In this document: one piece after another, positions 16,748 through 49,856 of the stretch
How positions within the stretch are numbered: the first letter of the stretch is position 1
Layout of the letters: each line of letters opens with the position of its first letter
Assembly (NCBI GenBank): GCA_030063045.1
Contig: JAQSEB010000099.1
Coordinates: 868,001 to 932,000 of the forward strand
Direction of reading: 5' to 3'
From: Pratylenchus scribneri
Taxonomy: Eukaryota > Nematoda > Chromadorea > Rhabditida > Pratylenchidae
Length of the DNA: 64,000 nucleotides
Program-made: the position numbers and the translations under genes
Notes under the pieces: model-generated
The model's database searches: none
What the model was told of the DNA's origin: nothing
The model's input: only the letters and a program-made list of their open reading frames with translations

Positions 16748-17699
16748 CCACCATGCGCCTATCCACGATTCGCCTATCCCATCATTCGCCTATCACACGA
16801 TTCGCCTATTGGGGGAAATTCCACGATTTGCCTATCCCACTTTTTGCCTATCCCACTATTTGCCTATTGGGGGAAAGGACACGATTCGCCTATTGGGGGC
16901 AAAAACACGATTCGCCTATTGGGGGCAAAAACATGATTCGCCTATTCCAGCAGGATATAAGGGGATTAAGGTGGATTTGGAGGGATTAAGCCGGATTAAG
17001 GACTGGAATCGATGGGAAATGGCCCGGACGGCCAATGGAAGATCTGGGAAGGCCCTATGAGTGCGCGGGATATATCCGGATAAAGGGGGATTAAGGTGGA
17101 TTTGGGGGGATTAAGCCGGATTAAGGCCTGGAATCGATGGGAAAAGGCCCGGACGGCCAATGGAAGATCTGGGAAGGCCCTATGAGTGCGCGGGATATAT
17201 CCGGATAAAGGGGGATTAAGGTGGATTTGGGGGGATTAAGCCGGATTAATCCCCCTATATCCGGATATATCCCGTGAACTCTCAGGCACTTCCTCAACCT
17301 TCCACTGGACCTCTGGACTATTTCCAATCAATTTCGGGGCTTAATCCCCCTATATCAACCTTAATCCCCATATATCCAGGTATATCCCGCGCACTCTAAA
17401 GGCCCTCTGCCAACTTTCCCGACCTCTTCGGGCCATTTCCCATCGATTCCAGACCTTAATCCAGTTTAATCTCCTCAAATCCACCTTAATCCCCTTATAT
17501 CCGGGAATAGGCGAATCGTGTTTTTGCCCCCAATAGGCGAATCATGTCTTTTACCCCAATAGGCGAATCGTGGAATTTCCCCCAATAGGCGAATCGTGTC
17601 CTTTCCCTCCAATAGGCGAATCGTGGAATTTCCCCCAATAGGCGAATCGTGTGATAGGCGAATGATGGGATAGGCGAATCGTGGATAGGCGCACTGTGG
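16748..17699. mobile_element. Foldback element with tandem-repeat arms
   Basis: The left arm (16748-about 17262) is an inverted copy of the right arm (about 17265-17699). The outer arms are repeats of a unit built on ATTCGCCTATTGGGGG plus spacer (AAATTCCACG or CAAAAACACG). Inner arms consist of GGATTAAG/CTTAATCC words, including a roughly 122-bp tandem duplication (16979-17100 and 17101-17222) ending at a GGATATATCCGGATA palindrome-like motif. Ends read CCACCATGCGCCTATCC and, reverse-complemented, CCACAGTGCGCCTATCC. No transposase gene and no convincing target-site duplication. The GGATTAAG words also fill the arrays of the large element at 32-47 kb. Confidence 0.8.
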
Positions 17700-31450: not shown

Positions 31451-34400
31451 ATGGCTAGAGGTGAGCATCAAATTTAGATTAAATTCGGTTACAAAAATTA
31501 GGTGGGGAAAACCGTCAATCTTTTTCCGAATTTAGTCATTTAATTTAAACGATCTTCAAATTTGTTCTAGTTACCATCCATCTTTTCTTCTCAATGATTT
31601 TTTGGGCATTTTTGCTGTCCAATTATGAATGTGTTGTTGGCCATGGGTATACGTTGGTGAAAGGCGGAATGCGAATTAAATTGCATTTGGAAACATTTAA
31701 GGCGGAGGAAATTGTCGACAATTACAATGGTTTTATTTTTGGAGTCAATAGAGAATATTTTCAATTTTTACAGATATTTTCAATCCGAATCATATTTCCG
31801 GATTTCTTCATGTGGTTGGGTTGTACAGCAAACAATGCGAGGTTATTTCAAATTAATTTTAAGTTTTTTTTTAAAATTTTTTAAAACCCATAAAGTATTT
31901 AAATGAAATTGGATATATATAATAAATAAAATTTTTTATTTTAAATTAAAATTGTGGCACAATGGCAAATAAATGTTAAAAATAAAAAAGGAAAAAAATA
32001 AATAAAAATTTTAAACCCATAAATTGTTTAATTGAAGTTGGAAATATATTCTCAACTAAGAGTTTTATGTTTATCAAAATCATTTAGAAAAGATGAAACA
32101 AATAAATGTTTAAAAATAAAAAAAAATAATGTAAAAAAGTAATATTATATAATTTAGGGTATGCGATGGTTTGTGGCGGGCCGGTTTGTGGCGAACTAGT
32201 TTTTGCTTTATAACTCATCGCAAACTGAACCATTTCGAATGTTTTTTTATTCATTTGATAGAGCAATAAATTGTCTATCTAATGATATATAAATCATTTT
32301 ATATTATTCAAACTAGCCCCTGCGGGGCTCTTTTGCTTTGAGATATATGGATCTTTGCTTGGGACACTTCGTTTTTGGAATCCCTGCGGGATTTCACTGA
32401 GTCTAGCCTTCTTTAGACTATTTGAGTTACTCGGAGGGAATTGATCTAATTTCGCAGGGGTTATCTCCATCTTCGCCCCTTCGGGGCTCAGGGGGGTTAT
32501 CTCCATCTTCGCCCCTTCGGGGCTCAGGGGGATTTGTTTCCATCTTCGCCCCTTCGGGGCTCAGGGGGGTTATCTCCATCTTCGCCCCTTCGGGGCTCAG
32601 GGGGATTTGTTTCCATCTTCGCCCCTTCGGGGCTCAGGGGTGTTATCTCCATCTTCGCCCCTTCGGGGCTCAGGGGGATTTGTTTCCATCTTCGCCCCTT
32701 CGGGGCTCAGGGGGGTTTAATCCATCTTCGCCACTTCGGGGCTCAGGGGGGTTTGTTTCCATCTTCGCCCCTTCGGGGCTCAGGGGGTGGCCTCCGGCCC
32801 TTTTCCCAACTTAATCCCATCATTTTGACCCTTAATCCGCCTTAATCCCTCTTAATCCCCCTTTATCCGGCTTAATCTCGCGCACCTTTAGGTTTCGTTC
32901 AAAACGGATATGATATTCGTGATCCCCGACCTCGATTACCCCATAAACGACTATTTTTGTGAAAATTTTGAAAAATCCGCTCCGCGGTTTACACCGCGGT
33001 AACTCGCGCACCGCTTAGCGGATTTCGAAAAAATTTCGATATTCGTTATTCCCGACCTTGATTACCCATTCTCCAGTGTTTATCTCGAAAAAAAATTTTT
33101 GAAAAGAGAAGGGTCCCCCCTATGGGTCTCAAAAAAACCGTTTTCCGCGCGGAGCTCCGCGCGGTGTGGAAATTTTGAAAAAGTCAGATTTTTGCCGCAA
33201 TCTACATAAGGTCAAGATATGGTTTGCACCAAACCGCTTGTCGATTGGACCATTTTGAAGAGAGCTTTAATTTCCCAAAGCTTTCGAAACCCACCTCAAA
33301 TTCTAGTAATAATAACTAGCCCCTGCGGGGCTCTCTTGCCTTGAGATATATGGATCTGTGCTTGGGACACTTCGTTTTTGGAATCCCTTCGGGATTTCAC
33401 TGAGTCTAGGTGATTTTGGAGGAAATCATAGCTTAATCCGACTTAATCCCCCTTTATCCCCCTATATCCGGCTTAATCCCACGCACTCCCAAGCCTGCTA
33501 TTTCCATCTTCGCCCCTTCGGGGCTCAGGGGGTGGCCTTCGGCCCTTTTCCCACCTTAATCCCACCATTTTGACACTTAATCCGGCTTAATCCCTCTTAA
33601 TCCCCCTATATCCAGCTTAATCCCACGCACTACCCGGCCTCCTGTTTCCATCTTCGCCCCTTCGGGGCTCAGGGGGAGGCCTTCGGCCCTTTTCCCACCT
33701 TAATCCCACCATTTTGACTCGTATTCCGGCTTAATCCCACTTAATCCCCCTTAATCCGGCTATATCCCTCCCACCTACCGGGCCTTCGGCCCGGCCCACT
33801 TGCCTTCGGCACGCTTCCCCCAAACTTCCGACCCATTTTTCGCCTTAATTACATCATTTTGACCGTTAATCCGGCTTAATCCCTCTTAATCCCCCTTTAT
33901 CCGGCTTAATCTCGCGCACCTTTAGGTTTCGTTCAAAACGGATATCATATTCGTGATCCCCGACCTCGATTACCCCATAAATGACTATTTTTGTGAAAAT
34001 TTTAAAAAAACCGCGGAGCGGTTTACACCGCGGTAACTCGCGCACCGCTTCGCGGATCTCGAAAAAAGTTTCATATTCGGCTTCGCCGACTTCGATTACC
34101 CATTTCTATGAACTTATCTCGAAAAAAAATTTTTGAAAAGAGAAGGGTCCCCCCTATGGGTCTCAGAAAAACCGTTTTTCGCGCGGAGCTCCGCGCGGAG
34201 TGAAAATTTTGAAAAACTGGAATTTTTCCCACAATCTCCACAAGGTCAAGATATGGTTTGCACCAAACCGCTTGTCGATACGACCATTTTGAAGAGAGAT
34301 AATTGAAAGAATTCCCGCGTCTACCCACCTTATTTTCTAGTAATAATAACTAGCCCCTGCGGGGCTCTTATACCCGTATTTGGATTCGTGGAATTGTTTA

Positions 34401-37400
34401 TAAGAATCCCTGCGGGATTACACTGTTTCTAGCCTTTTGTTTTTACTTAAAAATGCATTTGTAACATGCATTTCCACACCTGTTACACTTAAAAATGCAT
34501 TTGTAACATGCATTTCCACACTTCAAAACAAAAGCAAAAATTATTTATTTTATTTATTTACATTAAAAATGATATAATTAAAATACATAAAAAATATTTT
34601 ATAATTTTGAAAAAAGATTAACGAATAGTACAAAGGAAGTTCAAACTTATTCGCTAAACGACTAAGAATGAATAAAACAAAGACAATAAAAAAGAGTGAA
34701 AATGAACGAATGAAAATATAACGAATAGGACAAAGGACGTTCAAACTTATTCGCTAAACGACTAAGAGTGAATAATGACAAAGACAATTAAAAGAGGGAA
34801 AATATACGAATGAAAATATAACGAATAGGACAAAAAAATTAAGAGTGAAAAGGACAAAAGAAAAATGCAATTACGAAAATATAATAAATTAAATGAAATG
34901 TTAAAATAAATTAAGTTAAATAGTACAATAAAAATTGAAAAAATCCATTTGCTCATCCAATCCACATAACTGCATCGTAGTGATTGCCTCCCGAATGAAT
35001 CAGTGTTATTGGCTCCCGTTCAAGCATCCATAATTGTTCGTACTTCTGGTTGTAGATAGTATATTGCTGAAAATTATGCTTTTGTAAAGTCTTTAATCTA
35101 AGATTTTACCCTTATTGAATAATCCGGAAGATAAACAAAAACAAAATCTGGTGGATTTGCATTGCCCATTTTCAATTGGTTTTGCTTCTCCGCTATAAAT
35201 TATTTAATTATTTTTTTAGAATTTTTCTTTCTATTACTTTCGCTTGGTGGTGTGATGATAGCTATTGGTCGTTGAAGAAATTTTGCCATAGCCATTGCCT
35301 CTGGAGAACCTGCATATTTGCTGTCACGTGCTAGGTAATTGCGTGCATAATTGCTTATCGATCTTCCATATCGTTGTTCAAATTCCGGCATGCCATTAAG
35401 AAGTACTCCTGCTCCAATCATTTGACAAATTTGTTCCTTTAATTCGGTTGTTCCAGTTGTGTCGATCTCGATCAGAATATTTGTAGCAATATCGCGTAGA
35501 GTTTGATAAAGCCCAGGGTCATCATCAGAGATTCGCGATGCAATAGCACTAAAAGCATTTTTTGTGATTAAAAAAGCATTTTATTTATTACTGAAAAAAG
35601 CAATTGCCATCACGTGGAGCTCCAACTTGCATGCAATAACCGTTTAAGGCCTCAGCACTACCATAATATTGTATTCCTTCAGGTGTTGTCCCTCCATAAT
35701 TGGTGAAATTTTGTGGGATTGCAAATGGAATTTGTGGATTTTGTTGTATTTGAGGAGTGACAGAGCGTCGGCGAGTTGATCTTGTTGTTGGTGGTTGCAC
35801 TAATGGAGTTGCTTTTGTCGGTCTTCTTGATGTTGATGGTCTGCTAATGGCGTGTTGTGGAGTTTGTACCGATGCATTTGCATTCATAAAGTTGCTTTCA
35901 AATCGAGGCGAGCCTGCCCTTTCCCGCTCTAAGTCCTCTTGCTCCATTTTGAAGGCTTCTTCAATTTCTTCTCTATCGATTACTTGCTGATAAACCACAT
36001 TTTTAATATCCATAGCACCGGGTCTTGTGAGAACACTATAAAATATTTCATAAAAATTATCAATATTTTTTATTTGTACCGAAGTGAATCAGGGTCCCGA
36101 ACACGTGAAAAAGCAACATAGAGTTGTCCATGGCTGAAGCATTCTCCTTTTTTGAGTACAATGCCAACTCTGTCCAATGTTTGTCCTTGAGCTTTGTTAA
36201 TTGTCATGACGAATCCCGGCCGGAGTGGGAATTGTATCCTTGACCATTTCATTGCAGATTCATTTTGGCCTTGGCTGCCTCCACCATCAGTAAATTTGCA
36301 TTTGTAAAGTTGGAATTCTTGGCCGGCTCGAGCTCCATTAATGTAGCGGCAATATATGAGGTCATCACTGAATATTCTCGTAATTTGCACTCGGGTACCA
36401 TTGCATTGTCCATCGATCACACTCAGATTTCGATTAAGCATCATTATGGCACCGATTTTGATTTGCAATTCATAAGGTGGAAAGCCAGATGGAGTTTGAC
36501 GATGCAAGTTTTCGGCATATTTATCGGCGGCATGCACTGATAGGCAGTCTAATGGGTTGTCATTATCTGGTTCATCCGTGGCAGTGAATGTTCTTGCTTG
36601 GCCTGGTATCATATCCTTAAATAGAAAAATCAGAATATGATTGCATATGCATTGAATACCAATAATTGATTGTTCATTTTGAATGTCTCTTCATTTGTAG
36701 GACAGAGAAGTGCACTCCCTTTGATTTTATCGATGTTTTTAATTGGGTCAGACATTGCTGCTGAAGGAAAAACAAATTCCATGATTGCATCTGGATTGTT
36801 GGTGGTCATTGATTGTGGGATTTCGATTCGGCTATTGTTGTCCGTTGTTACTCCAGTGGCCAATTTATACATATAGCGGGCGAATTTCTGTGTCTTCTTG
36901 TCCGAATTTGTGAGCCGTTTGTTAATCGTGAGCCGAGTGGTTTTGAAAAGCCTTAGTTACAAAAGCATTTTTTTGAAAAAAATTATGGTTACATACTTGT
37001 AGAGTTGGCTGGATTTGACAGAACGTGCAAATTGGTTGGCCTCATCCTTTCCGGGAATTACTGGCATTAATTGTTTCCAGTCGCCGCCAATGATTACTGC
37101 TTTGCCACCAAATGGAAGTTTGGAATGGTGTTCAGAAATTGATCGAAGTAATTTGTCCACATATTCGAGTACATAGCGATCCTGCATTGAGACTTCATCA
37201 ATGATTATAAGTTGCGCTGCATCAAGTAGCATTGCATAGTTGGAGTGACGTGCAAGTCGTGGTTGGGTATCATGTTTGACATCATTTTGAACACAAAATC
37301 GGCAGTGCACGGTGGATCCTTCAATAAGCAATTCGGCTGCAATTCCAGTGGTTGCGCAAGGCAGTACACGAAGGCCTTTAGCTTTCATCCCAGCAATGAT

Positions 37401-40400
37401 CGTCTATATTAGTAGGATTTATTATTAATGGATATTTTCAAGTTTACATTATAAGTGAATGTTTTGCCAGTACCGCCAGCTCCGGTCAGGAAGAAATAGC
37501 GAGGAACTGTTGTGTCCTTTGGATTTGTTGTGACTGCTTTTAGAACCGCATCAACAAATGGTCTTTGTTCTTGTGGGGTGCATTGTCCGTACCAAGTTTG
37601 GAATTTTGTTGCATAATTGTTTGCATTTGTAGGCTGGTCATCATCTTCATCAGCCAAATTAAGGGCCATATAATCATCCCGAAAATATGTGCAGTCAATT
37701 TCATCTTGCTGATTCATCCGGAAATCTTTAGGTGCAGGTAGATTGATCATCTGGCAGGAGGTTTCGTTTTCTTAAATTAATATTTCATTCCATATGCATT
37801 GCATTTGCAATTACCATCATTTGGTTGGATTCCATGTATGCGCAGAATAATTTCAATGCGCTTCAATAGACGTTCCATTTTTTGTTCCTTAGTCATATTG
37901 CCAGGCCACATTGTAAGACTGTCGAAATGGTTCTCGAGGAGTTCAGCCGGTTTCTTGGGCAGTACATTTGCAATGAAAAGAGCAAACCATCGTATTCGTT
38001 CAGAAAGTGATCTTTTTTCAGCCATGGCATCTTTGATGGTATTGTCCCATAGTGAGTCATCGTGCATTAATCCGAGAGCAATAGCGCAATCTACGAAGCT
38101 TTTATGTTTTTTGCCATGTTGATCAATCAATAGATCTTCGAAAGAACACGGGCCTTTGACAATAAGCAAGAGAAGACGAATGGCCTAATAATAAAAAATT
38201 TACAAAAAAATATATAAAAATTGCTACTTGTAATTGCACGTTTCCAGGAGCAGCCGAACCAATGCGGACCAATTTATCCATTTTGAGTTTTCGTTGAGTC
38301 CATGTTTTGGAATTTTTCGACCACCAGTAATCATTGCATATCGTTGCATAAGTGTGCTTTAGGCGTTCTTCATCTTTTCCAGAGTCCAAGAGCTTTTTGT
38401 TCAGTCGGAAATATTCGGTCAGTTGGGACTTCTTTTCTTTGCCCTTTTGTTGATTCCTTATTTCCCTTTCGGCTGCAAGTTCTTCTTCTCCATCTTCAAA
38501 GACTACGGCAATCTTCAAATATTATTGGATTTATTCATATTCCAAATGCATTAAATATTACTTTTCCTGGTTCATGGATATGGAGTGTCTGGACATGATG
38601 CGATTTTGAAAATATTTTATGTCCCCAGATGCCGAGTCCAGCTTCGCTCGATGTTCTATAAACGCCAAGTCGGATTTCTTCGAATTCATCGTAGTTGACT
38701 ATGGGCGATGCATCATTTTTATCGGATTGTACCTTCACCAGGGCTAGATCACATCCTTTTGTTATATACTTGGTAACATATTTAGCAGTGGCATCGCCTT
38801 GAATCCATTCAATATTTATGCTAAAAGTAACAAATTAAATGCATTTGGAATCTCGGATCCTACTGGGATTTGTATTTCTTTAGAAGAAATGGATTGTGTG
38901 CCACAATATGCCTATTGTCAATTGTTCTTGCGGTATTATTCCTTGATGGATAAGTGTATGTTTCGCCGTATAAGTGTGGATTTGCCGCCTTTTCGTGGTC
39001 ATTTGGTGCAGGAGGACGTCGGCGATAGACGGGATACGATTCAGAACTGACTACATTCGAGTAGGAAAAGGGCTTCGGGAACCGTTTGCTGCATTTTCCA
39101 TCAACGATGCAGGCGGGAGAACAACGATGAGACATAAGTGAGACCACAGCATTATGATATTCTCGTTGTCTTTGTGCTTTTTTGCTTCTTTAATAGTAAT
39201 TTTATGAATTTAATTGCATTTGGATTTAATTACGTTGCTTTTTTCGGTGGAAGAGATGGAATTTCTGCACTTATGTATTGCTCGCACCATTCTTCAGGGG
39301 TCAATTTCATTGGTGTCCATTTTGTATCAGGCAATTTGAAATAATTATTGTCCTTGGTCTTGAATGTGATACACATGTGGAGATGAGGTAATCCGCTGTA
39401 AATTAAATCGTAAATTTCCATATTAAAATGCATTTGCAACCGTTTTTGATGTTCAACTGCTGAAAACCAAGCAGCCACTGGACCAAATATTTGGCGTTCG
39501 ACAATATCCCTCATAAGTTCCTTGTGCTTATTTATAAAGAGCCGTGTTACAATGTCCGGTCGATCGGCCCATGTTTGTTGCGGTCCCAAAAGTTTTTTGA
39601 ATTCCTCTGCTTCTGAGTTCATTGTAAATGTGAGCAGGACATGTGGATTGCCAAATGCACGGCATATTGATTGAGCGTCAGCATATGCTTTTTGGTAGTA
39701 ACGTCTAGATCCACGAAAGGTTTCAGGAGCAAAAAATACTTTCCCGAGTTTTGCGCCAATTCCAAATCCAAAGTTTCCTTGAAAATAAGTAGTAGATTAT
39801 GTAATATCCTGACGCTTTATACCTGAGCGAATTTTGTTTTCCATAGCCTTGAGTAATATTCCGGGCAAAACTGTGACCAATTTATCTTGGACTCTTTTGA
39901 TTGCATCTGCTTCATTTGCTTCGATTCGGTTATAGATGGTCAAAATGTAGAGTTGTGCCAGCATAGCTGCCCACCAAAGCCAATGATGTTTGCCATGTGG
40001 TCCCACGAATTTGAAACAGGAAACGATAAAATTGTCGCATGGAAACAAATTCAGAAGCGCCTGTCTTTTTCTATAATTGTATGTAAAAGCAAATGTTCTA
40101 TCTTTTTTTGTACCTTCCATTTTCCTTCGTTGCAATCTACTGTTTCTCCATCGGCTGTATTTTCACAATCGCTTGCATCTGGATCCTCATCAGAAGCATT
40201 TGGATTATTAGATGGGTTATCGGCTTCTTCATCTCCAGGATGGTCAATCAAGTCAAGAGCGCCTTCTGGTTCATCATCATCCGAAAATTCTTCATGGACA
40301 ATTGTATTGTTTGCATCTGGAGCCTTTTTAGTTTTGTCTTCTTTCGACTTGTTCTTATCTTCTTTCGGTTTATTTAGCGGAATGCCCAATTCATAAGTCC

Positions 40401-43400
40401 GTTGGCCATAAGGAAAGAGCAAGGGAAATAGTGCGGCATCAATGTTCGGGTCAAAAGGAGCAAAATCCACAGAACGACCATCTTTTCCTGTGAGCATAAT
40501 TCCTCGCTCTCTTGGTGGCCCATTGTCATCGCCCTCATCAAAATGGACCTAATTAGGAGTTTAAAGTTTTATTATTTTTGCATTTGTTCTCACTGTTGCG
40601 CATTGCATTAATCCATTTTCTGTTGGTAGAAGTAGTCGGTGATTATGTATATTGGCATCTACATTGGCTCCCTCTTCCACAGCCTTTCTTTTGTTCATCA
40701 AGGTCATGCGAAATTCGGGCATATCGATGTTATTCTGGTCAAAAAATCTCTTCCGTTCTTCATAAATTTCGGCGCATTTTTTATAGACATGGGCAAGCAC
40801 ATGATCTCGATCCAGCATTCGATGGAGTGTTTCGATGATTTCATGCTTAAATAATTATAATGATTGATTTCAATTTTAAATAAAAGCACTTTAAGTCCAC
40901 TATTAGCATCAAGTTGGTCGAGTCGCTCTCGGATTGCCTCATCGGGTGTTATGGTGTAACATTGACCCCATTTCCTTTTGTAATTGTCCTTATTTCCCGA
41001 ATGTTGTTGAGGATGATGTAGATCTGATAACCGATATTTTATTGCACCATTAATCTTGGCCACAGGCATTCCATGGGGTACATTTTCCTTAAACATAATA
41101 AGTCCATAAATAAAAAATTCCACTAATTCCAAATTTTCCACAAATCCAAAATATCCATTGCAAATGCAAAAAAAATTCCAAATTTATTATTAATTCCATA
41201 TCAAATAATTCCAAAATATTTTAAAATATTACTTTTTCCATGACTAAAGTGCCAAAGGCCATTTCCGCATTATAGCGCCAAGTATTGTTAATGAAATGCT
41301 TTGCCAGTGCTGCATTGTTGCCATTCTTCAACTCAAAAAGTTCATCAGGCTGACGCTGAAGTTTTTCCAAATACGCAGAGAGGTCAACGGTGCCTTTGTT
41401 GCAGCATTTAACGGAATCAATCTCATGTTCCAATTGCAAACAATTTTGATATTTGCATATGTAAGTCTTAAATATTTTATGAAAAGAATCAAGATTTATT
41501 TATAAAATACATTTTTAACGGAATCAAAATAGTCGGGAAAATGATTGGCATCCTTTGCTGCGCAACCAAGTCCCAAGTGCTGCATATGGCATTTTTGGGT
41601 GACTTTAGCAAAAGCACTATCAGAATTCTTTTCGGTTGGTTCATCGGTGTATATAGTTGGGGCTTTTGTTGTTCTTGTTGATCTTCGCAAAGGAATTGCA
41701 GGCACTTTGAAACTTTCTTCATTGAGGACTTCAGCAATTATTTCAGTTTCCTTTTCTCTTGCTTCTTCAGCTTGCAATATTGCCACTGCATGCTCATTTA
41801 TTTCATTTGCTTAAGTAATCTAATTTAGGCCTGTTTGTACATTAGATTATATTACATTCATTGCTCCTTATAGATGCGACGGAAGAACTTCTTGAATCGG
41901 GGCCATCCTGGGATTTACGTGGTCTTCCGGGTCCGCCTCGTTGCTTTTTTGGTCTTCCACGGGGTTTTGGCTTATCGATTGAGTTGGTGGGCAAAGGAGA
42001 AAATCCGGGTGGCACTGAGTCGAAGCCGGGTGGAGCCATTGTAACTAAGAAAAAAATTTGTTTCTGATTCCAAATGCATTAAAACCATCATCCAAATCCA
42101 TTGGTTCATCATCAATGAGCGCATCGGACCGTGCAAATTTGCTAGTTGGAAACATATCTGCCGCCGGATTCCGCCTTTTGCCTAGAGCTAAATAAAAATA
42201 AATAATGTCGAAAAAGAAAAGAATTTGCACCATTTGAGCCTCCAGAAGTATTGAGATCGAGATTCCCGAGCACAGATGAGAAGGAAGCATTGAAGTCCCG
42301 TGCCGCAAAAACAGGAGTACCTGTTCTAAAAGAAGAAGAGGAACCGACCTGCTCGTCTTGAAGAAGACGCACTGACACGGTATTCTCTGCCGCCGAACTC
42401 GCTGGCTCATCTTGAATTACAAATGCATTAAAATATTAGAAAAAAATTACTGGGATTTTCAGGTGGAAAATTAGAGCTGGCAGCCAAAGATGAATTCTGC
42501 AAGGCACCGGTCGCAGTAACAGCCGAAGACTGCTCGCCTTGAAGAAGGCGCTTTGAGCCGGGCACAGGCGTCGTTGCATCAGCTTAGAATATTAAAATTA
42601 AATTAATAAAAAAAACAATAAAATGACCGGCACACTCAGCATCTTTCTTTTTGGCATAAGCATCTCGTTTCGCCATTTTCCGCTTTTGCTCCTTGGTCAA
42701 ACCCATTGCTGTCGATGTTAAAACTTAATTCAAAATTTTAGCAAAACAAATTCTTTTAGAAAACTTTCCTTTCTAAAAATAATTGAATTTAATCTTTCGA
42801 ATTTATTATTAAATTTTTGATAAAATCTCGAAAAATAATGTGAAATTTTTTGCTTTTGGAATCAATTTTAAATTTTATTTTCGAAAATTGCTTTTGTTTT
42901 TGCAATTTTGGAATGCATTTTGATTTGAAATTAATTCGAAAATATTGATGCAAATTGCTTTTACAATTCTTTCATTCTTTTCCAAAATGCCTTTTTTAAT
43001 TCTTATTTTAATTTAATAAATAAAAGCAACACCAACCAAGTTGCAAAAAAAAAATGGCAAAAAAAATTTGGGGAAAGTAAGGAAGGAACTATTAGAGAAC
43101 GGGAACTATTTTAAACCCAGAAGGGGAAATCCAAAAAAATGGGGCCGTGGACGGCAACGCGAATATGCCGCGGCGTGTCAGCCGGGGGCGATAATACCCC
43201 CGGCTGAGGGACGCCTAAACCCAGCAAAGCCGGCGGCGTAGATTGTTTTCCTCTGTTTTTGGAAGGAAGATATGCGGCTGCTGGGGGCAAATTGTCTATG
43301 AGTTGGAATGAAAAAATTTAAGGAAAGGAGGGAAATAGGCAGAAATATCTCTGCTAGTCTAACTCTCATCACTCATCATACTATTTCTTAATGTTAGAGA

Positions 43401-46400
43401 GAGAGTTGAGCAGAGAGATTTAGGCGAGCAGAGATATTTTGCCTATTTCCCTTCTTTTCTTAAATTTTACACTTCCAACTCATAGACAATTTGCCCCCTT
43501 CATTTTCATATTATCAGTACAAAATTAAAATTAAATATGATTTATCAGTCTTATAGTCTTGTAAGGCTGCCCATTAATTTGGGATAAATGCTGGATTTTG
43601 TGGAATTTGTGGAATTTATTCCATTCCAAAAGCATTTTTAGATTAATTTTTTATGTTCAATATGCATTTTATTTCGAATTAAATTGTAAGGTGGATTGTT
43701 TGAAATTTTATCAATTCCAAATGCATTTTTGTCACAATTTTTAAGTTTCATAAGCATTTCGGTTTCATTTTAAACCAAGTTTATCTTGCGAGCCTTAGCA
43801 TTTCGTGAAAACTAATGTGATATTCGTGATCAGCATGCCTGATTTGCCCAGAAAAGACTTTCTATGAGTTGCTTTTGGAATAAACCGTTTTTGACCAAAC
43901 CGCGGTTTCAATTCGCGCAGCTTTCAATTTCATGCAAAACGGATATGATATTCGTGATCACCGACCCAGATTACCCCATATAGCATTATTTATAAGTCGA
44001 AATTTAAGAAAAATTATTTTTCCGCTCCGCGGTCTGAACCGCGGTAACTCGCACACCGCTTGACAAATCTCGAAAAAAATTTCATATTCGATTTCGCCGT
44101 CATCGATTACCCCATATAGGACTATTTTTGTGAAAATTTTGAAAAATCCGCTCCGCGGTTTACACCGCGGTAACTCGCGCACCGCTTCGCGGATCTCGAA
44201 AAAATTTTCATATTCGGGATCCCCGACCTCGATTACCCATTCCCCAGTGTTTATCTCGAAAAAAATTTTTTGAAAAGAGAAGGGTCCCCCCTTTGGGTCT
44301 CAAAAAAACCGTTTTCCGCGCGGAGCTCCGCGCGGAGTGAAGTTGGAAACTTCGTTGTATTTTTAGCCAAACCACGACCGGCTTCGGTCCCTTCATGCCA
44401 AATTTCAGGGCCTTCGGCCCATTTTGAAGACAGTTATCCTTTAGAGACTGATTTTGTTGAGACCTTATATTCTAGTAATAATAACTAGCCCCTGCGGGGC
44501 TCTCTTGCCTTGAGATTACTTGGGCTTTCCTCATTTTCTGAATCCCTGCGGGATTTCACTGTCTCTAGATGATTTTTGAGTCATTTTATGACTTAATCCG
44601 GCTTAATCCCCCTTAATCCACCTTAATCCCCTTTATCCGGCTTAATCCCACGCACTACCAAGCCTGCTATTTCCATTTTCGCCCCTTCGGGGCTCAAGGG
44701 GTGGCCTTCGGCCTCTTTCCCCACCTTAATCCCACCATTTTGACACTTAATCCAGCTTAATCCCCTTTAATCCCTCTTTATCCGGCTTAATCCCGCGCAC
44801 CTTTAGTTTTCGTTCAAAACGGATATGATATTCGTAATCCCCGACCCAGATTACCCCATAATTGACTATTTTTGTGAAAATTTTGAAAAATTCCGCTCCG
44901 CGGTTTGGCCGCGGTAACTCGCGCACCGCTCGGTCAACCCCGAAATTTTTTTCGATATTCGGCTTCGCCGACCTCGATTACCCATTCCTGATCATTTTTC
45001 AAGAAAAAATAAGATAAAAAATTTTTGAAAAGTGCTTGGTCCCCCCTATGGGTACCAAAAAAACCGTTTTCCGCGCGGAGCTCCGCGCGGAGTGAAAATT
45101 TTAAAAAAGTTGAAGTTTTCTACAAATCTACGGCCGAAGCGGCGTCGATCGGTACCAAATTTACAGCCTACGGAGCAAACCTCGAGGAGTCTTTGAATGG
45201 AAAAGAAATCCCATCCTTGTTATATTCTTATAATAATAACTAGCCCCTGCGGGGCTCTCTTGCCTTGAGATTGGGAGACTTCGTTTTTGGAATCCCTGCG
45301 GGATTTCACTGAGTCTAGGTGATTTTGGAGGAAATCATAGCTTAATCCGGCTTAATCCCCCTTTATCCTCCTTTATCCCTCTATATCCGGCTTAATCCCA
45401 CGCACTGCCAAGCCTGCTATTTCCATCTTCGCCCCTTCGGGGCTCAGGGGGTGGCCTTCGGCCCCTTTCCCCACCTTAATCCCATCATTTTGACCCTTAA
45501 TCCCTCTTAATCCCCCTTAATCCCCCTTTATCCGGCTTAATCCCATGCACTCACAAGCCTGCTATTTCCATCTTCGCCCCTTCGGGGCTCAAGGGGGGCC
45601 TTCGGCCCCTTTCCCACCTTAATCCCATCATTTTTACCCTTAATCCGGCTTAATCTCTCTTAATCCCCCTTTATCCGGCTATATCCAGCCCAGCTACCGG
45701 GCCTCCGGCCCGGTCCACGTGCCTTCGGCACGCTTTCCCTTCACTTCCGACCCATTTCCTGCCTTAATTCCATCATTTTGACACTTAATCCCTCTTAATC
45801 CTCCTATATCCGGCTTAATCTCGCGCACCTTTAGGTTTCGTTCAAAACGGATATGATATTCATTATCCCCGACCCCGATTACCCCATATTACACTATTTT
45901 TAAGTCGAAATTGAGAAAAAAAATTTTTTCCGCTCCGCGGTTTGGTCACGGTAACTCGCGCACCGCTCGGTAAATCCGGAAATTTTTTTCGATATTCGGC
46001 TTCGCCGACCTCGATTACCCATTCCTGAATCGATTTCAAGAAAAAATAAGACAAAAATTTTTTGAAAAGAGAAGGGTCCCCCCTATGGGTACCAAAAAAA
46101 CCGTTTTCCGCGCGGAGCTCCGCGCGGAGTGAAGATGGAAACTTCATTATATTTTTCTCCAAATCTACGGCCGAAGTGTCGTCGATCGAGACCAAATTCC
46201 CGAGATGAGGAGTATTTTGAAGGCAGATATTAGTTAGAGAAGGATGTAGGGGTCTTGTTATATTCTTATAATAATAACTAGCCCCTGCGGGGCTCTCTTG
46301 CCTTGAGATATATGGATCTGTGCTTGGGACACTTCGTTTTTGGAATCCCTTCGGGATTTCACTGAGTCTAGGTGATTTTGGAGGAAATCATAGCTTAATC

Positions 46401-48271
46401 CGACTTAATCCCCCTTTATCCCCCTATATCCGGCTTAATCCCACGCACTCCCAAGCCTGCTATTTCCATCTTCGCCCCTTCGGGGCTCAGGGGGTGGCCT
46501 TCGGCCCTTTTCCCACCTTAATCCCACCATTTTGACCCTTAATCCGGCTTAATCCCTCTTAATCCCCCTATATCCAGCTTAATCCCACGCACTACCCGGC
46601 CTCCTGTTTCCATCTTCGCCCCTTCGGGGCTCAGGGGGAGGCCTTCGGCCCTTTTCCCACCTTAATCCCACCATTTTGACCCTTAATCCGGCTTAATCCC
46701 ACTTAATCCCCCTTAATCCGGCTATATCCCTCCCACCTACCGGGCCTTCGGCCCGGCCCACTTGCCTAACCGCGGTTTCAATTCGCGCAGCTTTCAATTT
46801 CATGCAAAACGGATATGATATTCGTGATCACCGACCCAGATTACCCCATATAGCATTATTTATAAGTCGAAATTTAAGAAAAATTATTTTTCCGCTCCGC
46901 GGTCTGAACCGCGGTAACTCGCACACCGCTTGACAAATCTCGAAAAAAATTTCATATTCGATTTCGCCGTCATCGATTACCCCATATAGGACTATTTTTG
47001 TGAAAATTTTGAAAAATCCGCTCCGCGGTTTACACCGCGGTAACTCGCGCACCGCTTCGCGGATCTCGAAAAAATTTTCATATTCGGGATCCCCGACCTC
47101 GATTACCCATTCCCCAGTGTTTATCTCGAAAAAAATTTTTTGAAAAGAGAAGGGTCCCCCCTTTGGGTCTCAAAAAAACCGTTTTCCGCGCGGAGCTCCG
47201 CGCGGAGTGAAGTTGGAAACTTCGTTGTATTTTTAGCCAAACCACGACCGGCTTCGGTCCCTTCATGCCAAATTTCAGGGCCTTCGGCCCATTTTGAAGA
47301 CAGTTATCCTTTAGAGACTGATTTTGTTGAGACCTTATATTCTAGTAATAATAATTAGAGAAAGTTATGAGCTATTGAATAAAATTGGGCAAAATGGTGT
47401 CAATTTTGAAGGTTTTTGATTTTTAAAAAATGTAAAAATATGTTTTATAATTTGATTTTTATATGGGCTGATAGAGAATTTTTTGCTCTATTCAATGATA
47501 TAAAAAACATTCGAAAACATTCATTAGGCGCTGAGCTATTAGCTTTCGCCACAAACCGGCCGCGCCACAAAACGTCCCGCTCCGTATAATTTATGATGAA
47601 ATGGCCATAGCCATATCCACCCGTCACTTTCCATATTTTTACGGTTAATAAAAATTAATCCTAGAATTTCTTTATTTGTAATTTGTACCAATTTTTGTAT
47701 ATGTATTTAAGATATAAAATTTAAATAAATTTATTCATTTTTGGAATCATTAAACCCTAAAGTATTATTTCATAAGAAAAATTTGTTAAATGTATAAAAT
47801 AGTACATAAACAGTAAACAATGTTTAAAAACTCGAAATGCCTAAATCTCCTGCGGAGCTGTTTCAATTTAAATTATATTCGAATTTGAATATATAATACC
47901 TTAAAACTTATTTTAATTCTCTACCCTCAAAAATTCCCACATTAAATTTTAAGGACCCATAGCTCCAGGGTAGGGTGAACTTTAAAAATTTTTTATTTCA
48001 TTATATTAATTCCTTAAAGCTCTACAAAATGTTTTAAGTGTTATAAAATTGTTCAAAAATATCCACAAATTAACTTAGACTCCAAATTTTTCCAATTTTT
48101 GAGGGGTTGAAAAATAATTCTCCATGAGAAATTAATTTACGGTATTGCTTCAGTCTAAATTAAACCTAAATCTCCATATATTTCCCGCAGGATCCACTGG
48201 CAAAATTGTTCAAAGATGCTGCTCAATTCAATTTGGATGATATCCGCAATAATTTTTTCCATTTTAATTGA
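31451..48271 (+). CDS. Small secreted protein gene; last intron holds the 15.4 kb element
   Basis: Exons 31451-31460, 31571-31729, 31774-31841 and 48191-48271 join in frame (318 nt, 105 residues). The product starts MARVTIHLFFSMIFWAFLLS (signal peptide). Mature sequence includes GYTLVKGGMRIKLHLETF and SGFLHVVGLYSKQCE, followed in the last exon by DPLAKLFKDAAQFNLDDIR and NNFFHFN. Exon 3 ends TGCGAG before GTTATT (phase 0), and the last exon follows TTTCCCGCAG in phase 0. If exon 3 is not spliced, the frame instead stops at TAA 31854-31856, giving 83 residues. So linking the exons across the element is inference from phase and codon quality. Family not recognised. Confidence 0.5.
32148..32156. 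repeat. Candidate 9-bp target-site duplication, left
   Basis: TATAATTTA directly precedes the left inverted repeat; the same nine bases directly follow the right inverted repeat at 47585-47593. The match does not extend by even one base either way. The sequence is AT-only, so chance is not excluded, but its position exactly at both aligned ends supports a real duplication. Confidence 0.6.
32157..32293 (+). repeat. Left terminal inverted repeat of the 15.4 kb element
   Basis: Shares GGCCGGTTTGTGGCGAA, TTCGAATGTTTTTT, ATAGAGCAA, CTATC and ATATAAA-AATC in the same order with the reverse complement of 47448-47584. The outermost 12 bases are more diverged but of equal length on both sides. Two GGTTTGTGGCG words are present. 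Confidence 0.75.
32313..34430. repeat. Left hairpin-rich array, about 1 kb units
   Basis: Units start at 32313, 33316 and 34350 (last one truncated), each with CTAGCCCCTGCGGGGCTC. Each full unit contains, in order: a segment of about 95 bp ending in a CCCTGCGGG or CCCTTCGGG hairpin and TCACTGAGTCTAG; CTTAATCC-rich tracts; GCCCCTTCGGGGC and GGGCCTTCGGCCC hairpins; a TTTCGTTCAAAACGGATAT block; the CCGCGG-TTTACA-CCGCGG hairpin; a near-perfect CCGCGCGGAGCTCCGCGCGG palindrome; and TCTAGTAATAATAA. Short frames repeated between units are by-products of the repeat. Confidence 0.85.
32456..32790. repeat. GC-rich minisatellite of hairpin units
   Basis: About nine copies of CATCTTCGCCCCTTCGGGGC followed by TCAGGGG and a spacer of two main kinds (GGTTATCTC or GATTTGTTTC). 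Each copy contains a GCCCC-TTC-GGGGC hairpin. It is a local expansion of the same motif found singly in the other array units. Confidence 0.9.
34436..34520. repeat. Duplicated AAATGCATTT block
   Basis: ACTTAAAAATGCATTTGTAAC followed by ATGCATTTCCACAC occurs twice in direct tandem between the left array and the 3' end of the replicase gene. The same AAATGCATTT word marks many of the gene's introns. Confidence 0.8.
34953..42706 (-). CDS. Helitron-type Rep/helicase with AT-hooks and OTU domain
   Basis: 25 exons (first 42706-42628, last 35066-34953 with TGA), 6,595 nt, about 2,200 residues. N-terminal region: low-complexity, with AT-hooks PRGRPKK and GRPRK (residues about 190-207). Helitron N-terminal block: CCNKGTV and WRYNAEMAFGTL (exon 7). 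Rep: FPLLFPYG, GSRRYYQKAYADAQ, WADRPDIVTRLF, then QKR+GLPHLHMCITF (HUH-type motif His-Leu-His, residue about 898) and the two-Tyr motif KYVTKYITKGCD (about 1071-1075). PIF1-like helicase: FLTGAGGTGKTFTYN (Walker A), LIIIDEVSM (Walker B), GGDWKQLMPVIP, FVMTINKAQGQTLDRVG, HGQLYVAFSRV. C-terminal OTU protease: RDGNCFFHAIA (catalytic Cys), KYAGSPEAMAMAKFL, and HSGGNHYDAVMW (catalytic His). One flaw: exon 11 (40070-39823) has one base too many; the frame switches between FQIRG and HWLWWAAMLAQLY near 39980-40000. Otherwise probably intact. Introns mostly 42-50 nt. Confidence 0.9.
43179..43206. other. Strong GC hairpin
   Basis: CAGCCGGGGG and CCCCCGGCTG are perfect complements of 10 bases, separated by an 8-base loop (CGATAATA). 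It lies about 470 bp upstream of the replicase ATG, where a Helitron's 5' part would be. Helitron hairpins are normally near the 3' end, so the role is unknown; it might be the end of another insertion. Confidence 0.7.
43283..43498. mobile_element. 216-bp MITE nested inside the large element
   Basis: The ends are GGGGGCAAATTGTCTATGAG and its reverse complement. The arms continue as TTGGAA, AAATTTAAG, AAAG-AGGGAAATAGGC and AGA(A/-)ATATCTCTGCT, giving about 75-bp inverted repeats around a short centre with GAGAGAGAG. No coding content. Its position between the replicase and the right array shows a later insertion. Confidence 0.85.
43800..47355. repeat. Right hairpin-rich array, about 1 kb units
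   Basis: Same unit type and orientation as the left array. Unit starts (CTAGCCCC) are at 44485, 45240 and 46278, preceded by a 5'-truncated unit (about 43800-44484). The last unit is a chimera: 46278-46766 is an ungapped copy of 33316-33804, and 46768-47354 is an ungapped copy of 43898-44484. Hairpins present: CCGCGG-TTTACA-CCGCGG, CCGCGCGGAGCTCCGCGCGG, GGGCC-TTC-GGCCC, GTGCC-TTC-GGCAC and TCGGC-TTC-GCCGA. Confidence 0.85.
47448..47584 (-). repeat. Right terminal inverted repeat of the 15.4 kb element
   Basis: Inverted counterpart of 32157-32293; contains TTCGCCACAAACCGGCC, GCCACAAAACG, AAAAAACATTCGAA and TTGCTCTATTC. It ends at CCGCTCCG, directly followed by TATAATTTA. Confidence 0.75.
47585..47593. 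repeat. Candidate 9-bp target-site duplication, right
   Basis: TATAATTTA, identical to 32148-32156, immediately outside the right inverted repeat. Confidence 0.6.
47907..48145. mobile_element. TACCGTAAA-family MITE copy (inverted)
   Basis: Starts TACCTTAAAACTTATTTTAA, ends TTAATTTACGGTAT, and carries AGCTCTACAAAATG, AATATCCACAAATTAA and CCAATTTTTGAGGGG. These are reverse complements of blocks in the copy at 22082. It lies in the same host intron as the 15.4 kb element. Confidence 0.55.
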
Positions 48272-49088: not shown

Positions 49089-49856
49089 ATGTCCACCACA
49101 TTTTTGACAATTTCATTGCTTCTTTTGGCTACAATGGCCATTTTCCCCAGCATCGAAGGATTCCGCCAACAATCCGTTGGAGTTCGTGGCCGTTTGATGT
49201 GCGGCGATAAACCATTGGCCAGTACAAAAGTAAAATTGTGGAACAAAAATAGAATTGGTCAGTCAAATTTTGGCCATTTTAAATTATTTAATTACACTGT
49301 CAACATTTTAGGAAGAGATGACCAGTTGGCTGATGCCCAGACTGATGCTAATGGGAATTTCGTGTTGGATGGTGGAGTTGGTTCCATTTTCAGCATGAAT
49401 GTTCACTTCAAAAGTATGTACAAAAATAATTTTAGGCAAAAATTTGATTACTTATCGCTTATCCCGTGGCAGATTTTTTCCCCAAAAATACCTTAAGTTA
49501 CCCTTAAAATCCTCTAATATAATCTTTTTTCATCATTTTATTTTCAAATATGAGTAATAGAATAAGAAGCTCAAAAAAATTTCAAATCTCCCCCCTCCCC
49601 GGGATAATCGATAACTACCAAAATTGGGATTAAAATTCATGAATAAATTCCTTCATTTTTCTCTTCATTATCTTGGATTTTTTCCCCAGTTTATCATGAT
49701 TGTGACCGAGGCATTTTGCCATGCCAACGCAAAGTTGATTTGGGCATTCCTTCAGAATATGTGAGCCGTTCAAGCAATGTACAAAAATGGTTCGATGCCG
49801 GTGTGCTGAATATGCAATTCAAATTTCCCGATGAATCCACTTCTTGCATCAATTAA
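49089..49856 (+). CDS. Transthyretin-like (TTL) family secreted protein
   Basis: Exons 49089-49257, 49312-49413 and 49690-49856 join in frame (438 nt, 145 residues). Signal peptide: [20 protein letters not shown]. The mature protein has the TTL layout: [20 protein letters not shown] (first strand with Cys), [28 protein letters not shown], then [19 protein letters not shown] and a C-terminal Cys three residues before the end. TTL proteins are a large nematode-specific secreted family; known members act in apoptotic-cell clearance (C. elegans TTR-52) or as effectors of plant-parasitic species. The specific role of this member is unknown. The acceptor of exon 3 is TTTCCCCAG. Confidence 0.92.

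Follow-up and report, generated by a model that had tools for sequence, protein, structure and literature searches.

Results

The window analyzed here is a stretch of 64,000 nucleotides of the Pratylenchus scribneri genome (C99:868001-932000), and the genome searched comprised 227,248,964 bases in 276 contigs. The interval 32148-47593 of the window consists of two unrelated things, namely a short DNA transposon and a row of six Helitrons by which it is halved. The 15,042-bp insert (32313-47354, minus strand) is made up of six head-to-tail Helitron units and lies at an A|T step of a MITE; its G+C content is 41% as compared to 32% in the remainder of the window. At gathering scores, no Rfam match was obtained for the window. 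Outside the element, an open reading frame at 49089-49496 (plus strand) encodes a transthyretin-like (TTR-52) domain (E 1.1e-11), and besides this one no Pfam match was found in the 10 window ORFs scanned there.

The MITE is present as a 5′ part of 156 bp (32157-32312, plus strand) and a 3′ part of 230 bp (47355-47584, plus strand) of its 386 bp, which are up to 98% and up to 100% identical to uninterrupted copies, respectively. Two copies of the 9-bp target duplication TATAATTTA, at 32148-32156 and 47585-47593 (no strand assigned), flank it, as the original prediction had stated. The inverted repeats of about 135 bp described there are real but shorter: just inside TATAATTTA, BLAST aligned 112 columns with 78% identity and 12 gap positions (E 2e-13), the ends of the MITE being GGGTATGCG and CGGAGCGGG. 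A chance origin of these TIRs was rejected on the basis of the inverted-repeat alignment and the multi-copy genome matches of both ends. In the best genome matches, the left 156 bp and the right 230 bp adjoin as one element of 381-387 bp, and all 12 other distinct copies read lack an interruption at the position of the window's insert. These copies were taken from the best matches of genome searches with each window end, in which the best 40 of 525 candidates were scored for one end and the best 40 of 278 for the other, copy numbers being lower bounds. An exact flanking duplication of 9 bp, the length seen in the window, was found in six of the 12 copies and one of 8 bp in five, and the remaining copy had none that was exact. 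The search with the two ends that had been suggested together with the prediction hence yielded other copies, uninterrupted sites, ends without the replicase and duplications of 8-9 bp. The 386-bp element is a non-autonomous TIR transposon and, since it has no space for a transposase, a MITE. Mutator-like elements have long TIRs and target duplications of 8-11 bp, mostly of 9 bp, and the duplications of the MITE fall in this range; with its 8-9-bp duplications as the basis of the label, the MITE may be termed putatively Mutator-like.

On the minus strand, the empty MITE site reads CTCTAA|TTTGAATAA. The insert starts with TTATTATTACTAG after the MITE's A and ends with GAGCCCCGCAGGGGCTAG before the MITE's T, and comparison of the window with the empty site places the insertion between A and T without target duplication. 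The ends of the insert can be shifted by 1-2 bases, as further Ts follow, and the ending in CTAG is the conventional choice. All six units start with TTATTATTA and end with GAGCCCCGCAGGGGCTAG, that is with a CTAG 3′ terminus, and zero bases separate neighbours, with 32313-47354 tiled free of gaps and the 3′ end joined directly to the 5′ end at five of five inner joints. A single 15-kb Helitron was rejected because of these five joints inside the insert.

The units, all on the minus strand, differ in sequence and in length, from 755 to 10,135 bp. Unit D (10,135 bp; 34350-44484) carries a Rep/helicase gene, and units A (1077 bp; 46278-47354), B (1038 bp; 45240-46277), C (755 bp; 44485-45239), E (1034 bp; 33316-34349) and F (1003 bp; 32313-33315) are without replicase. 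The terminal 3′ end of the array, GAGCCCCGCAGGGGCTAG with hairpin and CTAG (32313-32330, minus strand), is followed by the T of the MITE. The 3′ hairpin (-6 kcal/mol), the stem of which ends 2 nt short of the terminus, surpasses shuffled sequences only to a moderate degree (z -1.87; 13 of 200 shuffles fold as well). Over aligned bases, the five small units are mutually 67-85% alike; they are thus relatives and not recent copies of one another, and tandem copying of a single element does not account for the array. D and E are fused in unit A, which begins with 587 bases equal to unit D and finishes with 490 that match unit E with 4 mismatches, so that recombination or terminator bypass happens too. 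Minisatellites of 36/73 bp and of about 144 bp with CTTAATCC motifs lie inside the small units (32457-32787, 33432-33785, 44592-44800, 45351-45680 and 46394-46747), with repeat numbers that differ between units; that of unit F has the 36/73-bp period. At 16949-17250, the window also contains short sequences that match the CTTAATCC minisatellite in inverted orientation (83-90%), with no Helitron 3′ end nearby in the scan, and this stretch is possibly a remnant.

The Rep/helicase gene region of unit D (35203-42588, minus strand) comprises multiple exons: 18 coding pieces, which were defined by conservation with two Helitron copies in C47 and the ends of which are approximate, are separated by short apparent introns from about 42.6 to 35.2 kb. 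One Rep piece (39233-39778, minus strand) contains Helitron_like_N (E 5.5e-27) and the HLH motif, another (38544-38825, minus strand) the YVTKY two-tyrosine motif, and the Pif1-type helicase pieces (36079-37768, minus strand) match PIF1 (E 1e-34) and Pif1_2B (E 5.9e-11) and contain the Walker A motif GAGGTGKT. PHLH, YVTKY and GAGGTGKT stand in this order on one strand, and we take them to be the HUH motif, the two tyrosines and Walker A, respectively. The gene joins a Rep with HUH motif and two tyrosines to a Pif1-type helicase, which is the mark of the Helitron superfamily. It is the sole large coding region seen inside the element, in agreement with the original prediction that the only large gene is of Helitron type; the accompanying claim that a DDE transposase is missing holds for the 10 ORF pieces scanned, all of them pieces of the replicase gene. 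The coding pieces presumably form one transcript, and the fragmentary ORFs of unit D are, at least in part, due to the exon structure. Helentrons have an endonuclease domain, frequently accompanied by OTU. In unit D, an OTU match in the pieces scanned (E 0.013) fell under Pfam's cut-off, so that an OTU-like end of the gene is only suggested, and no endonuclease match was found in the pieces scanned, which represent part of the gene. Among the matches listed, the best-scoring relatives of the Rep protein are proteins of cyst nematodes (Globodera, Heterodera) with about 40% identity. Other Helitron-type replicases in the genome, of which eight examples were taken, score better in Pfam than that of unit D, and several other genomic replicases have stop-free open frames of about 1,300 to 2,150 codons.

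Single units of the array were found elsewhere in the genome. The copy of unit A at C12:1426934-1428010 is identical in 1077 of 1077 bases, and both its flanks are unlike the window, with another unit upstream where the window has the MITE and an E-like unit (96% over the first 774 bases of E) downstream where the window has B. Unit B is matched base for base at C186:262515-263552 and at C68:547796-548833, where its neighbours differ on either side. Outside the copied A and B units, similarity is limited to shared end motifs. A copy of unit D with 99.9% identity, its own ends and a different host flank ending in A lies at C114:780633-766468, and no match to the MITE was detected in the 20 kb around it. 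The unit downstream of this copy is at best 84% identical to F (end to end) and 81% to E and, being unlike both, indicates that D did not reach C114 together with them. The recurrence of A and B (100% each) and of D (99.9%) next to different neighbours shows that single units move. The C114 copy of D also contains an internal tandem duplication of 4,030 bp that includes the first part of the Rep gene.

For the other units, the nearest copies are more distant. Among the matches listed, whole-length copies of unit C reach at most 86% and the closest copy of unit E (C12:1405496-1406529) 98%, and for unit F no near-identical copy was found, with 85% over the whole length and up to 93% over about half. 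The identity of F to C114:766467-765524 is 92% over 97% in joined BLAST pieces and 83.8% end to end, and it varies because the minisatellite can be aligned differently. In these searches the best 10 of 908 (A), 11 of 977 (B), 23 of 956 (C), 10 of 957 (E) and 17 of 571 (F) candidates were scored, and a nearest copy is the nearest among those.

Exact copies of GAGCCCCGCAGGGGCTAG occur 259 times genome-wide, and 204 of them, about four in five, are directly continued by TTATTATTA; the reversed-pattern controls gave zero for GAGCCCCGCAGGGGCTAG and zero for the joint pattern. Both numbers are whole-genome counts of exact motifs, which do not capture variant ends (GCGCCGCAGGCGCTAG, CTGG, small indels), and since the CTRR variant CTGG takes part in joints, 204 is an undercount. 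At C33:3180058-3180097, TTATTATTA is joined to a CTGG 3′ end whose hairpin is a different one. Of the 66 3′ ends in the window and six fetched stretches, 61 meet a 5′ end with zero gap, a proportion that is biased because the six stretches were picked for clustered matches, whereas the 204 of 259 are free of that bias; one further fetched stretch, in C69, had no such 3′ end. The first 100 listed 3′ ends include 78 exact joints, and the other 22, of which one was read in C47 and 14 and 7 in two further samplings, all continue with T, three being joints with small indels in the start of the next unit and 19 leading into other DNA.

Outer 3′ flanks begin with T in all 23 cases read (5, 14 and 4 from three samplings), although one that is counted among them (TTATTAAACC) is possibly a joint that has decayed. 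On the 5′ side, five of the six outer flanks read have A as their last base, and the sixth, preceded by another hairpin and CTGG end, is probably another joint. Exact joints read G|T, and A and T are found only at the outsides of arrays. At their outer 3′ flanks, several arrays lie in TTATATATA-type or shared repeats, two with AAATTTGAAATTCG and three with GACTTTTTCAC, hinting at an AT-rich target preference.

An array in C142 has at least 15 whole units. At C47:2497064-2567192, three replicase-bearing units of 11,617 bp each show 100% identity; the array continues with replicase-bearing units of 96.5%, 81% (over 80%) and 74% (over 43% of the length) identity and ends in a unit of 1,174 bp, identity to the leftmost units dropping toward the 3′ side. 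A two-unit block (1252 + 880 bp) is repeated in C82, and identical units stand in non-adjacent positions in C69. Furthermore, two 5′ ends are cut by a whole unit, after 50 bases at C47:2531915 and after 42 bases at C69:784593. Comparison with the intact sequence showed that the 50-bp unit start in C47 is cut at A|T; it is followed by the whole unit and then by another joint.

Discussion

The interval had been read as a single element, for which either a new architecture or a Mutator-like carrier that has taken up a Helitron was considered. The genome shows two MITE halves and six Helitron units instead of one element, and the nesting of the Helitron array in the MITE, taken alone, is near certain. 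The reported anomaly is therefore a nested insertion, ordinary in that respect, and not a new TIR-Helitron architecture. Intact ends and a duplication around the replicase are indeed what a new type of transposon, a rolling-circle replicase with long TIRs and a 9-bp duplication of its own, would display. However, in each of the 12 copies read the TIR halves make up a replicase-free element of 386 bp, and unit D has inner ends and occurs in C114 without the TIR element in 20 kb, which leaves such a type with next to no probability. Ownership of the TIRs by the replicase was rejected, as each part has copies without the other. The C114 copy is at the same time what the original prediction had named as evidence against itself, a replicase copy with inner ends and no TIRs. 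The carrier reading comes close to what was found, as a Helitron array did land at an A|T step inside a copy of the small element, although nothing points to an active uptake. An assembly artefact joining unrelated repeats is very improbable: the mean read length of 7 kb and the low-input DNA (PMC10138993, in excerpt) would allow for it, as unit D exceeds this read length and a second, near-identical copy of it exists, but complementary MITE halves with matching 9-bp duplications are not expected from a wrong join, and the joint motif was found 204 times. The nested TIRs at this locus advise caution against inferring new architectures from one locus.

Regarding the origin of the row, we consider it likely that the MITE was split at A|T by six head-to-tail units in an array that was extended at its left edge by one inserted unit after another. 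This assessment refers to the statement as a whole; the rival accounts of how the array grew include the same nesting and can operate alongside the growth proposed here, and their probabilities do not exclude one another or add up to one. Helitron insertion requires A|T. The first unit would have entered the MITE at its A|T step, and as each unit begins with T and the host A stays on the left, the A|T target would be remade at the left edge. Rep is predicted to cut the resident left edge as at the start of transposition and to join the CTAG end of the incoming unit to the resident TTATTATTA end. Resident left ends would be Rep's own transposition origin and hence, presumably, preferred targets. 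Serial insertion at the left edge would lead to the head-to-tail order, the G|T joints, A and T only on the outside and neighbours of mixed origin. We infer the order of insertion, the choice of resident ends by Rep and the role of the unit D protein as maker of the insertions. From A to F, the identity to the nearest copy, determined with few of many candidates scored, is 100%, 100%, 86%, 99.9%, 98% and 85% (whole-length), and because it is not monotonic along the array, left-edge growth can only be inferred.

Two other routes to the array have to be weighed. It could have entered the MITE ready-made and in a single event, as one concatemer formed when the rolling circle passed several 3′ ends. 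That there is a single empty site with a single pair of outer flanks is in line with this, end bypass and circles of Helitrons have been published (PMC5148889 and PMC5876387, both in excerpt), and some arrays look like multimers, notably the three identical 11,617-bp units in C47 and the repeated pair in C82, which fit rolling-circle multimers or unequal crossing-over. In the window, by contrast, the units are unlike one another (67-85%), A, B and D are each found singly with other neighbours, and no multi-unit block of the window was found elsewhere among the matches listed, so that we regard a ready-made multimer as distinctly unlikely here. Alternatively, circular Helitrons might recombine with resident joints, by homology or through Rep, so that arrays gain units internally and not just at the edge, and unequal crossing-over multiplies blocks. 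The joints share GGGGCTAG|TTATTATTA, which is the junction expected of a circle, the last ~94 bases of several units match at 93-97%, and the higher-order repeats in C82 and the non-adjacent identical units in C69 agree with such exchanges. Against this, homology at the joints covers no more than about 100 bases at the 3′ end plus a short motif at the unit start, and the first arrival in the MITE would still require ordinary insertion at A|T. Although the data do not cleanly separate recombination of circles from growth at the edge, we find the former doubtful as the main route, and serial left-edge insertion remains our preferred reading.

More tentatively, and with chances that we put somewhat below even, these arrays may be the work of a self-stacking Helitron lineage, in which Rep prefers resident left ends and unlike units with and without replicase pile up. 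If true, such behaviour would be the reverse of target immunity. Should resident left ends be the target, targeting and initiation of Helitrons would be the same reaction, and one route from transposons to satellite-like arrays would be given. The debate on how head-to-tail Helitrons originate has drawn on, among others, several bat junctions and a single pair in maize, and the maize case could not account for repeated stacking (PMC2267711, in excerpt). Here, one genome offers 204 exact joints, unlike units that can partly be traced to exact copies, and one clean empty site; such arrays make serial insertion versus rolling-circle multimers directly testable.

Compared to known systems, the MITE of the window resembles Mutator-like MITEs in its long imperfect TIRs and its 8-9-bp duplications. 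The units share with canonical Helitron1 elements the Rep and Pif1 helicase, the CTAG hairpin end, the A|T target and the lack of target duplication. They differ in the 5′ end, which is TC in Helitron1 and TTATTATTA here, and in the position of the 3′ hairpin, which by the canonical definition lies 10-12 nt upstream of the terminus (PMC5148889, in excerpt) and in the units within 2 bases of it. Asymmetric inverted ends of the Helitron2 type were rejected on exact matches only: in six of six units, no exact inverted match of at least 9 bp, as expected for Helitron2/Helentron elements, was found between the first 60 and the last 250 bases. Judged from these terminal features, the units appear to fit neither named group, being set apart from Helitron1 by the 5′ end and lacking exact Helitron2 inverted ends, and they are filed as array-forming Helitrons of the wider superfamily. 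In Caenorhabditis, satellites have been described within Helitrons (PMC4595182, in excerpt).

Head-to-tail or tandem Helitrons are known from bat, Drosophila, rice, maize and plant centromeres, and the published arrays have head-to-tail junctions like those found here (as cited in PMC5876387 and PMC5148889, both in excerpt). The composite Helitrons of Fusarium have two 5′ ends and were explained by self-insertion with a first-terminator pattern (PMC5148889, in the part available). The two cut 5′ ends in C47 and C69 show this pattern, and the 50-bp start in C47, with its whole unit and joint, agrees with the self-insertion model, although the Fusarium elements are Helitron2-like and have other ends than the units described here. 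Among the titles listed on nematode Helitron arrays and a few passages, some of them from a survey covering the P. scribneri genome (PMC11118728), no such trains were found, which is weak evidence of their absence. A close parallel is the maize pair (PMC2267711, in excerpt), in which two unlike neighbours are adjacent head to tail and CTAG meets the next 5′ T at a G/T joint, as in P. scribneri; of the two insertion orders proposed for it, one is at the A|T that arises where the host A meets the initial T of the element. Whereas maize provided one pair, the arrays reported here reach at least 15 whole units (C142), with 204 joints genome-wide, and additionally have replicase-bearing units inside the arrays and an empty-site comparison from the MITE. 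Taken all together, it is the dense trains of unlike Helitron units, a variant of the known tandem Helitrons, that deserve attention here.
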